Of a stretch of 64,000 bases of DNA, positions 1 to 49,700 are shown in pieces. Source of the DNA: Terriglobia bacterium (GTDB lineage: Bacteria > Acidobacteriota > UBA6911); the NCBI GenBank assembly GCA_020072565.1, contig JAIQGI010000033.1:1-64000 (forward strand). The letters are read 5' to 3'. Below the pieces are notes generated by a model, which worked only from the letters and a program-made list of their open reading frames with translations, was not told where the DNA came from and ran no database searches. The translations under genes and the position numbers were made by a program. Position 1 is the first letter of the stretch, and the number at the start of each line of letters is the position of its first letter.

Positions 1-139
<139 letters not shown>

Positions 140-197: not shown

Positions 198-775
198 GCC
201 AACTTAAAGAATTTTGGATTTTGGAATTTGGATTTTGGATTGTGGGTCCTGGAAGAAAAGATCACGAAGTCCATTCTGCACCTGGACTCTGCATTGATCC
301 CTCACTTCCATTTGTCCTTTCAAATCAGAAATCCAAAATCTAAAATCCAAAATCCTTATGGATTCCCCACTTCTCATTTGTCCTTTCAAATCCAAAATCG
401 CAAATCCAAAATCTAAAATTCCTAGAGTTGTGGAGCCCACGATCAGAATTGAACTGATGACCTCGTCCTTACCAAGGACGCGCTCTGCCAACTTAAAGAA
501 TTTTGGATTTTGGAATTTGGATTTTGGATTGTGGGTCCTGGAAGAAAAGATCACGAAGTCCATTCTGCACCTGGACTCTGCATTGATCCCTCACTTCCAT
601 TTGTCCTTTCAAATCTAAAATCCAAAATCTAAAATCCAAAATCCTTATTGATCTCCCACTTCTCATTTGTCCTTTCAAATCCAAAATCGCAAATCCAAAA
701 TTCCTAGAGTTGTGGAGCCCACGATCAGAATTGAACTGATGACCTCGTCCTTACCAAGGACGCGCTCTGCCAACT
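198..775. repeat. Tandem duplication of about 285 bp between tuf and tRNA-Thr
   Basis: Two nearly identical units lie head to tail, one starting at 198 and the next at 487 (289 bp), ending at the copy of GCCAACT at 769-775 (282 bp). The 7-base word GCCAACT occurs at 198-204, 487-493 and 769-775, exactly at the unit borders. This is the footprint expected of a microhomology-mediated tandem duplication. Each unit holds TTTTGGATTTTGG tracts, an opposing ATCCAAAATC tract and part of tRNA-Thr(GGU). The units differ by a 7-base deletion and a few substitutions. Confidence 0.9.
431..493 (-). pseudogene. Truncated duplicate of tRNA-Thr(GGU)
   Basis: These 63 bases match tRNA-Thr(GGU) from the D-arm (AGTTGGC) through the anticodon and T arms to the CCA end. 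The first 13 bases, holding the 5' acceptor strand and the start of the D arm, are missing, and TTTAAG-containing repeat sequence stands in their place. No acceptor stem can form, so it should not be a functional tRNA. It is the by-product of the tandem duplication at 198-775. It keeps a T arm and a CCA end, so it could still be seen by RNase Z, RNase P or the CCA enzyme. Confidence 0.92.
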
Positions 776-788
776 GAGCTACGTGGGC
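713..788 (-). tRNA. tRNA-Thr(GGU)
   Basis: A full cloverleaf of 76 bases. The acceptor stem GCCCACG pairs with CGTGGGC, the anticodon loop holds GGT, and the T arm and encoded CCA are present. It is the fourth tRNA of the operon, upstream of tuf, at the position of thrT in E. coli. Confidence 0.95.
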
Positions 789-796
789 TGAAACTC

Positions 797-872
797 TGGA
801 GCGGGAGACGGGACTCGAACCCGCGACCAATAGCTTGGAAGGCTATGACTCTGCCAACTGAGTTACTCCCGC
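797..872 (-). tRNA. tRNA-Gly(UCC)
   Basis: A 76-base cloverleaf with acceptor GCGGGAG/CTCCCGC, anticodon TCC in the loop CTTCCAA, a standard T arm and an encoded CCA. It lies 8 bases upstream of tRNA-Thr(GGU), corresponding to glyT of the E. coli tufB operon. Confidence 0.95.
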
Positions 873-975: not shown

Positions 976-1063
976 TGGTGGAGAGGGAAGGATTCGAACC
1001 TTCGTAGTCCCGAAGGACGCTGGGTTTACAGCCCAGTGCCATTAACCGCTCGACCACCTCTCC
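976..1063 (-). tRNA. tRNA-Tyr(GUA)
   Basis: An 88-base class II tRNA with acceptor GGAGAGG/CCTCTCC, anticodon GTA in the loop CTGTAAA, the long variable arm expected for bacterial tRNA-Tyr (GTCCTTCGGGAC stem-loop) and an encoded CCA. It is second in the tRNA operon, like tyrU in E. coli. Confidence 0.95.
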
Positions 1064-1277: not shown

Positions 1278-1353
1278 TGGAGCTGGCGAGAGGATTTGAA
1301 CCCCCGACCCGCTGATTACAAATCAGCTGCTCTACCAACTGAGCTACGCCAGC
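1278..1353 (-). tRNA. tRNA-Thr(UGU)
   Basis: A 76-base cloverleaf with acceptor GCTGGCG/CGCCAGC, anticodon TGT in the loop TTTGTAA, and an encoded CCA. It is the promoter-proximal gene of the tRNA-tuf operon (thrU position). It lies about 215 bases from tRNA-Tyr, and I see no gene in that spacer. Confidence 0.95.
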
Positions 1354-45150: not shown

Positions 45151-47820
45151 TCATTTTCCGTGACATTTTTTAAACTTCTTTCCGCTGCCGCAGGGGCAGG
45201 GGTCGTTGCGTCCGACTTTGGCGACATCGCGCTTGCGCTGAGCAACGGACCCGTCGCCACCCGAACCATAGACGAGGCTCTGTTCGCGCGCCTGTCTGCG
45301 GCGCATTTCTTCCTGCTGTCGTGCCCGTTCCTGCTGCTCTTCAATACTGATGGGCTCGAACAGGAAGAGGTAGCGGATCGTCTCTTCCTCCCGCCGGGCG
45401 TTGAGAGCTTCGAACATCTCGAAGCTCTCCTTTTTGTACTCAATGAGAGGATCCCGCTGACCGTAGCCGCGCAGGCCGATGCCCTCTTTCAGATGGTCGA
45501 GGGCCAGCAGGTGGTCCTTCCATTGCACGTCGAGCACCTGGAGCATGATCATGCGTTCCTGGTAGCGCATGAACTCCGGGCCGACTCGCTTCTCCTTGTC
45601 CTCGTAAATGCGCTTTATGGTGTCGCTGAGTTTCTCTGACAGCTCCTGGTAGGTCGCCTCCTTGACGTCAAAACCAAGAGCCGTGATGTCGGTACCGAAC
45701 TGATTTCCAACGCTGATGCGCAGGCCCTCCAGATCCCACTCGCCGGGATGCTTGTCGCGGGGGGCATACTTGTCGATCAACTCGATCAGGATGTCCTCCG
45801 CCAGATTCATGATGTATTCCTTCTGGTCGACACCCTCGAGCAGATCGCGGCGGATGGCGTAGATGGCCTCGCGCTGCTTGTTCATCACATCGTCATATTC
45901 CAGCAGGTGTTTGCGGATTTCGAAGTTGCGTGCCTCCACCTGCTTCTGTGCCCGCTCGATTTGACGGGTAATAAGCCTGCTCTCGATCGGAACGCCCTCC
46001 TCCATTCCGAGCGACTGCATGATGCCCGAGATGCGATCACTGGCGAAGATGCGCATGAGATCGTCTTCCAACGAGAGATAGAAGCGCGAGGAGCCGGGAT
46101 CACCCTGGCGCCCTGCGCGCCCGCGCAACTGGTTGTCGATACGCCGGGCCTCGTGGCGTTCTGTGCCCAGGATATGCAATCCGCCAAGCCCGACGACGTC
46201 GTCATGCTCTCTTTGGCAGACGGACTGCCAATGGTCGCGGATGCGGTCATACTCCTGTTTGGCAACGGTCTCCGGAGCCAGGTTCTTCTCGCGCAGGCTC
46301 TGCACGGTGAGGAAGTCGGGATGGCCGCCCAACAGAATGTCGGTGCCCCGCCCGGCCATGTTAGTCGCGATGGTCACAGATTTCTTCCTGCCCGCCTGGG
46401 CTACAATTTCCGCCTCTTTGGCATGGTACTTGGCGTTCAGGACGACATGGGGAACACCGCTGCGCTTCAGCAGCGTGCTGAGCTTCTCCGACTTCTCGAT
46501 CGAGACGGTGCCCACGAGGACCGGCCTGCCCACCTCATGCAGCTCCTTGATCTCCTCAACGACGGCGTTGTATTTTTCCCGTTCGGTGCGGTAGATGATG
46601 TCCTGATGCTCGGTTCGGACTAGAGTCTTGTTGGGCGGAATCACGTTGACTTCCAGCTTGTATATTTTGAAGAACTCCTCCGCCTCGGTTTCCGCAGTTC
46701 CGGTCATGCCGGCAAGCTTCTTGTACATACGGAAATAATTCTGAAAAGTAACGGTCGCGAGGGTCTGGTTCTCGCGTTCGATCTTCACATTCTCCTTGGC
46801 TTCCAAGGCCTGATGGAGACCGTCGCTGTAACGGCGTCCGGGCATCAGACGGCCGGTGAACTCGTCGACGATCACCACCTCGGCATCCTTGACCATGTAG
46901 TCCACATCCCTCTTGAAGAGCAGATGGGCCTTCAGTGCCTGGTAGATGTGGTGGACCCAGTCCATGTTCTGGGGCTCAAACAGATTACCGACTGCAAGGA
47001 GCTTTTCGGCCTTTTCGACCCCCTCCTCGGTCAGGTTCACGGTCCGCGCTTTTTCATCCACCTGATAGTCGACGTCACGACGGAGCCTGGGAACGATGCG
47101 ATCGATCTTGTAGTACTTGTCCGTTGATTCTTCGGCCGGTCCCGAGATGATTAGAGGAGTTCGCGCCTCATCGATCAGGATTGAGTCCACCTCGTCCACG
47201 ATCGCGTAGTTGAATCCCCTTTGTACACAATCGGCCAGGTCGTACTTCATGTTGTCGCGGAGGTAGTCGAAGCCGAACTCGTTGTTCGTGCCGTAGGTGA
47301 TGTCGGCGCCATAGGCAACTTTGCGCTCTTCGTCGGTCAGAGGATGCTGGATGCAGCCGACCGTCAACCCCATGATCCGGTAAACCTTACCCATCCACTC
47401 GCTGTCGCGCCCTGCCAGGTAATCATTGACGGTGACGATGTGGACGCCCTTCCCTTCCAGTGCGTTGAGGTACGCGGGGAGGGTAGCGACCAGGGTCTTT
47501 CCTTCCCCCGTCTTCATCTCGGAGATCTTTCCCTGGTGCAGAACCATGCCGCCGACGAGCTGCACGTCGAAGTGACGCATGTTGAGGGTGCGCCTGCCCG
47601 CCTCCCTGACGGCCGCAAACGCCTCAGGCAAAATGTCGTCCAACGACTCTCCGTCCGCAAGTCGCTGGCGGAATCTGGGCGTCAGCTCCGCCAGTTGCAG
47701 ATCCGAAAGGCGCTGCATTTCCGGTTCCAGCTCATTGATGCTCTGGACCGACGGCGCCAGCTTTTTCAGATCGCGCTCGTTTTTGCTGCCGACGATCTTG
47801 GTGAGAATCGTGTTGAACAT
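45151..47820 (-). CDS. secA: Preprotein translocase ATPase SecA
   Basis: 889 residues. SecA drives secretory proteins through the SecYEG channel. The DEAD motor has the P-loop [10 protein letters not shown] (103-112) and [19 protein letters not shown], and the second nucleotide-binding fold has [15 protein letters not shown] and [21 protein letters not shown]. The preprotein-crosslinking and scaffold regions follow in the usual order. The C-terminal zinc site [15 protein letters not shown], which contacts SecB or the ribosome in other bacteria, is intact. ATG at 47820 with a GGAG upstream. Confidence 0.98.
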
Positions 47821-49350: not shown

Positions 49351-49700
49351 GGGGGTGAACTGGATTCGACGGGGGTCAAAGAGGCTGCAGAGGCATGCCG
49401 AGTGCTCCGCGACTCGTAAAATCGTGGAAATAACTTAACTGCTGACACTCAGTTAGCACTGGCCGCTTAGGCGGTCACGTCTCGCCGATCCTGCCTGCGG
49501 GGTTGGATTGAGGCGCCGATCAGCAGGATAGGCGAGGATCCAGGCTCTGAGATCCGAGCCGAAACCCTACAGGGCTAGCGGCGTATCGACCTTGCCGATT
49601 CGATCGCTGCGTCCGCGAAACTCAACGAATACGGATACGCATGTAGGCTTTGCACGCTGAAGGCTCTCGGACGCGGGTTCGATTCCCGCCACCTCCACCA
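49351..49700 (+). ncRNA. ssrA: Transfer-messenger RNA (tmRNA)
   Basis: 350 bases. The ends form the tRNA-Ala-like domain: 5' GGGGGTG pairs with CACCTCC before ACCA, GGGGGTGAACTGGATTCGAC is the conserved 5' start, and GGTTCGATTCCCGCC is the T arm. The internal reading frame at 49426-49470 encodes GNNLTADTQLALAA followed by TAG. ALAA is the proteolysis signal. tmRNA rescues stalled ribosomes with SmpB and marks the unfinished protein. Pseudoknot-rich sequence fills 49480-49660. The first tag residue reads as Gly rather than the usual Ala; the resume codon is inferred from the frame of the ALAA end. Confidence 0.96.

Follow-up and report, generated by a model that had tools for sequence, protein, structure and literature searches.

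Probable, fairly recent tandem duplication between seven-base repeats at a heptamer palindrome, with a partial tRNA-Thr gene, in the thrT-tuf spacer of an acidobacterium

The window, meaning the whole stretch of 64,000 nucleotides analysed here, comes from the genome of an uncultured acidobacterium, assembled in draft form into 135 contigs with 3.8% contamination. For one protein of the window, the closest named relatives are found in Acidobacteria MAGs, at 67–84% identity. The window starts at a contig end (G000:C33:1) that lies inside tuf, the gene of EF-Tu, and its positions 1–139 are identical to positions 1–139 of contig C3, which carries the other tuf copy adjoining fusA. On the plus strand, the tuf fragment is followed by a spacer of 573 nt (140–712) and then by four tRNA genes, tRNA-Thr(GGT), tRNA-Gly, tRNA-Tyr, and tRNA-Thr(TGT), all of them encoded on the minus strand. 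A tmRNA gene with the tag ADTQLALAA lies on the plus strand of the window at 49351–49700. The features of the locus are the following.

1–139, minus strand: 5' end of tuf (EF-Tu, first 46 codons, from the translation), cut by the contig end
198–486: tandem unit 1, 289 bp, hairpin plus the 3' part of tRNA-Thr
198–204, plus strand: GCCAACT at the tuf-side border, base of the hairpin
200–430: palindrome copy 1, arms 200–241 and 389–430, directly after the CCA of the partial tRNA
431–493, minus strand: truncated tRNA-Thr(GGT), 63 nt including CCA, between intact thrT and tuf
487–768: tandem unit 2, 282 bp, shorter than unit 1 by one heptamer
487–493, plus strand: GCCAACT at the hybrid junction
489–712: palindrome copy 2, directly after the CCA of the intact tRNA
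713–788, minus strand: intact tRNA-Thr(GGT) (ARAGORN; Rfam tRNA model)
769–775, plus strand: GCCAACT at the thrT-side border, in the D-arm of the intact tRNA
797–872, minus strand: tRNA-Gly(TCC) (ARAGORN)
883–972: smaller related heptamer hairpin after tRNA-Tyr (repeat search, families D2 and I13)
976–1063, minus strand: tRNA-Tyr(GTA) (ARAGORN)
1278–1353, minus strand: tRNA-Thr(TGT), first gene of the cluster (ARAGORN)

The spacer is occupied mostly by a tandem repeat. TRF reports it at 198–775 with a period of 289, 2.0 copies, 95% matches, and a score of 1064, and the repeat search finds two registers, one of 289 with 215 nt at 98% and one of 282 with 122 nt. The two units, for which the original prediction gave the same lengths of 289 and 282 bp, are arranged head-to-tail and differ by five substitutions over 282 aligned positions (327, 328, 360, 364, and 365) and by one 7-bp heptamer indel. 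The heptamer GCCAACT stands at both borders and at the junction, as had been predicted, and its surroundings are gacg-GCCAACT-taaag at 198, ctct-GCCAACT-taaag at 487, and ctct-GCCAACT-gagc at 769. Thus, on its left side the middle copy matches the surroundings of the thrT border and on its right side those of the tuf border, which bears out the predicted joining of both contexts. A duplication between short direct repeats is supported by the exact fit of the borders and the junction; the heptamer palindrome, which makes up most of the unit, was absent from the original prediction, as were similar duplications at other places in the genome. An exact 32-base search of the genome contigs with the unit sequence gave no match.

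Repeats of 7 bp, ATTTTGG/CCAAAAT, build up an imperfect palindrome that fills most of each unit and in both begins directly after the CCA end of tRNA-Thr. Its arms are 42 nt long, 83% complementary, and closed by CAACT/AGTTG, and 198–486 as single-stranded DNA folds far better than shuffled sequence (z -5.7). The trailer of tRNA-Tyr at 931–972 is identical over 42 nt to 387–428 of unit 1, after the partial tRNA-Thr, and such identical trailers would point to older copying of hairpins within the operon. Since unit 1 has the same heptamer state as this trailer, the loss of one heptamer would most simply be placed in unit 2, after the duplication. All five substitutions fall within 39 nt (327–365; p ~0.001 under uniform placement), and the first 129 bp of the two units as well as the tRNA part are fully identical, which suggests few mutational events after the duplication and therefore a fairly young age. 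Taken as a whole, a real and fairly recent tandem duplication, with the D-arm of tRNA-Thr(GGT) at one end and the tuf-side base of the heptamer palindrome at the other, is well supported.

The duplicated tRNA part at 431–493 agrees with the 63-base tRNA-Thr lacking its 5' acceptor strand that had been proposed from the sequence. It is short of 13 nt, namely the 5' acceptor strand, U8/A9, and the 5' strand of the D-stem. With Infernal, it scores 24.4 bits against the Rfam tRNA model (model positions 8–63), below the gathering score of 29, and ARAGORN does not call it; the only tRNA-Thr(GGT) called here is the gene at 713–788. Hence, it has neither the complete acceptor stem and D-arm of a functional tRNA nor acceptance by the model. 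Over its 3' half, with the T-arm and the anticodon arm, it matches the intact gene without a difference.

Across the phylum, the genes keep the order Thr(TGT)-Tyr-Gly-Thr(GGT)-tuf. The original prediction had placed the fragment in a co-transcribed precursor, and the conserved order fits this, although co-transcription of thrT and tuf itself is something we infer from gene order. In the 14 relatives with a complete readable spacer, the distance between thrT and tuf is only 36–161 nt, compared with 573 nt here. These are more distant relatives with thrT and the start of tuf on one contig, and each of these short spacers comes with one tRNA-Thr. A second, partial tRNA-Thr is present in none of 16 relatives with an intact thrT, that is, the 14 with a whole spacer and two further ones. 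The only congener, G001, has a similar trailer after tRNA-Tyr (GCAACTCGAGGATTTGGGATTTTGGG...), and its contig ends within this trailer, between Tyr and Gly and before Gly-Thr. Among the relatives whose spacer could be read, the duplication is thus seen in this genome only.

The heptamer stands at dozens of places dispersed over the genome. The pattern ATTTTGGATTTTGGATTT with at most two mismatches has 144 matches, whereas the reversed control has 0. At most of the heptamer sites examined, two inverted arrays stand as a pair within a short stretch, and opposed 7-bp arrays lie between genes at many sites. Related heptamers are present in many, not all, Acidobacteriota; for instance, G029, G030, G035, G054, and G042 have many arrays with variants of their own (ATTTGGG, ATTTCGG, ATTTTGA), as though the heptamer were particular to each lineage. 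Tandem repeats with a period of at least 60 bp were counted, and those with at least 90% matches were taken as high-identity. In a hairpin-bearing sample of 464 kb (20 stretches of 20 kb plus the window, with 34 heptamer clusters), tandem repeats occur at four places, all with at least 90% matches, and three of the four lie on heptamer hairpins. A further 400 kb without heptamer clusters contains no tandem repeat at or above 90% and two older ones at 74–78%. Over the roughly 860 kb sampled, three of four high-identity tandem duplications are therefore on heptamer hairpins, a figure to be read as two of the three others, as the stretches were picked around heptamers and the case in the window was known beforehand. 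The two further hairpin-linked duplications are given below.

L103:9330–9837 (G000:C48, about 45330–45837): tandem duplication, period 195 bp, 2.6 copies, 97% matches
L091:9219–9425 (G000:C11): tandem duplication, two copies, period 104 bp, 92%

Each copy of the C48 duplication consists of the last ~30 codons of lpxD and a heptamer hairpin, and the third copy has an insertion in the hairpin loop. The C11 duplication comprises the hairpin and ~20 bp of its upstream flank, and lies after nuoB and before the next nuo gene; the names lpxD and nuoB come from reading the translated ORFs rather than from a database search. Two of the three hairpin-linked duplications, therefore, also copy the end of a gene, namely tRNA-Thr and the C-terminus of lpxD. 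Another tandem repeat on C48 (L103:19507–19886), with three copies of 126 bp at 95%, is unlinked to a heptamer hairpin. In G030, another heptamer-rich acidobacterium, no tandem duplication is found at 23 heptamer sites; therefore, the link between hairpins and duplications may be peculiar to this lineage or to longer palindromes.

The duplication in the window is probably best explained by replication misalignment between two copies of GCCAACT, aided by the hairpin; the partial tRNA would be left over as an inert by-product. During replication, the palindrome would extrude as a hairpin, and extrusion of 200–430 would bring the GCCAACT copies from ~289 nt apart to ~60 nt apart. The nascent strand could then slip back from one GCCAACT to the other and recopy the segment, which would leave a truncated tRNA-Thr behind. 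The breakpoints, the microhomology, the palindrome, and the recurrence of such duplications on hairpins in this genome are seen in the sequence, and strand slippage is the inferred route. By eye, the C48 and C11 junctions have no microhomology comparable to GCCAACT, and hence the hairpins may merely be sites where duplications are tolerated. A broader proposal, in which heptamer palindromes after gene ends repeatedly drive tandem duplication of the gene 3' end plus hairpin in this lineage and place truncated thrT and lpxD copies in operon spacers, is tentative and rather doubtful.

Other origins of the second unit have been weighed against replication misalignment. Two strain variants of a single unit could have been joined in tandem by the assembler, as the locus lies in a draft assembly with some contamination, 0.2 kb from a contig end and beside a multi-copy gene (tuf), with the whole duplicated segment 0.2–0.8 kb from the assembly break; moreover, the clustering of the substitutions is what strain variants might display. 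However, the junction CTCT-GCCAACT-TAAAG has only 7 bp in common with each border, far below the overlap used by an assembler, and for this reason the hybrid junction must come from reads. The junction together with the differences between the units is unlike the product of a simple collapse or bubble error, and similar duplications with unique gene sequence are found deep within other contigs, which leaves only a slim chance for an assembly artefact. The partial tRNA could alternatively be the attachment-site scar of an integrated element that targets the tRNA gene. Integrating elements commonly leave partial copies of tRNA genes, and tRNA fragments are usually attributed to them (PMC9897764). 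This reading fails here because the repeat extends ~225 bp beyond the 3' end of the tRNA on both sides and exceeds an attachment site; between the copies there is only the same hairpin, with no space for an integrase gene. An attachment-site scar is refuted by the length and content of the repeat, the fragment does not resemble one left by such a site, and the idea is hardly credible.

A mobile origin of the palindrome itself, as a MITE- or REP-like element whose second copy arose by transposition, would agree with the dispersal of heptamer hairpins over the genome and with the 42-nt stretch common to the Tyr and Thr trailers. On the other hand, the repeated unit takes in 56–63 nt of the tRNA, in perfect register and with a microhomology junction, and other genomic copies share heptamer arrays only, rather than a single element with fixed ends. 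No element core with constant ends and target-site duplications is present at the sites read. Transposition was rejected on these grounds, the tRNA inside the unit, the perfect-register junction, and the lack of a fixed-end element at the sites read, and is very unlikely.

Whether the fragment has a role of its own is a separate question. The original prediction had suggested that it acts as a decoy for tRNA-processing enzymes or alters the expression of tuf, so that the truncated tRNA would be kept for a function, as a decoy for processing or modifying enzymes or by tuning tuf through the spacer RNA. The RNA prediction offers a pairing between GGACCCAC, which lies in the spacer upstream of the fragment, and GUGGGCUCC at the fragment's 3' end; this pairing would replace part of the lost acceptor stem and give a makeshift one. 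Yet the fold is weak (z -2.0, with 5 of 200 shuffles at least as good), and the fragment folded alone does no better than 27 of 200 shuffles. The identity of its T-arm and anticodon arm with those of the intact gene might speak for retention, but is also expectable for a young copy. Additionally, its score lies under the tRNA cut-off, it is missing from the 14 relatives with a readable spacer, and between thrT and tuf the coding strand has neither a predicted promoter nor a predicted terminator. The decoy proposal finds no support, as the fragment cannot form a tRNA and is absent from readable relatives; an effect on tuf expression likewise finds none, as the fragment looks like a by-product. 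A retained function is accordingly a very remote prospect. A fold of the whole spacer RNA, in which the 5' end of the intact tRNA pairs with the 3' end of the partial copy, was not taken as evidence for a decoy, since transcription reaches the intact tRNA before the partial copy, and the two halves of the intact tRNA lie much nearer to each other. Matches of the spacer to Rfam MIR2630 and other microRNA families are far under the respective gathering scores and are due only to the AT-rich heptamer hairpin. The partial tRNA-Thr is thus probably inert and non-functional, while the intact thrT upstream still supplies the tRNA.

Comparable arrangements are known from other bacteria. The repeats of the tyrT-tyrV operon of E. 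coli (rttR region) likewise stand in tandem immediately downstream of a tRNA gene. In E. coli MG1655, the tyrV array reaches the 3' end of tyrV and has 3.1 copies of 178 bp, each repeating the 3' end of tRNA-Tyr. Direct repeats downstream of a tRNA gene, each with its 3' end, are found here too. However, the E. coli array contains only the extreme 3' end of the tRNA, ~20 nt as read, compared with 63 nt of tRNA here. In E. coli tyrT-type repeats, the portion of the tRNA 3' end is 19 nt. The E. coli region also carries the annotated small RNA rttR and the ORF tpr, in contrast to the heptamer-palindrome unit followed by tuf. With a different tRNA, a different unit sequence, and a unit of 178 bp instead of 289/282 bp, the two arrays are not homologous; they are products of one kind but do not belong to one family by descent. 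Dispersed intergenic 7-bp arrays, often in convergent inverted pairs and capable of forming stem-loops, are described in Xanthomonas and Nostoc, with the heptamer GGGAATC and in other phyla, in contrast to ATTTTGG here; the parts of that report consulted contain no tandem duplication of adjoining gene ends linked to these heptamers (PMC4692102). In Pseudomonas fluorescens, tRNA genes are gained by tandem duplication, but these duplications are 45–290 kb long, laboratory-selected, and include whole tRNA genes, whereas the one described here is 0.3 kb long with a broken tRNA (PMC7661048).

The duplication in the thrT-tuf spacer is genome wear of an everyday sort that was already known from E. 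coli; in this genome such duplications recur next to one type of hairpin repeat. The partial tRNA itself probably has no effect. The locus provides a clean natural case in which 7-bp repeats at a palindrome bound a small tandem duplication, with copies that differ at just six places, and indicates that no integrating element is needed for partial tRNA genes to arise. That duplications and heptamer hairpins occur together in one genome gives a testable lead on the effects of hairpins on genome stability. If the tentative link to gene ends is true, heptamer hairpins would be a standing source of gene-end duplicates.
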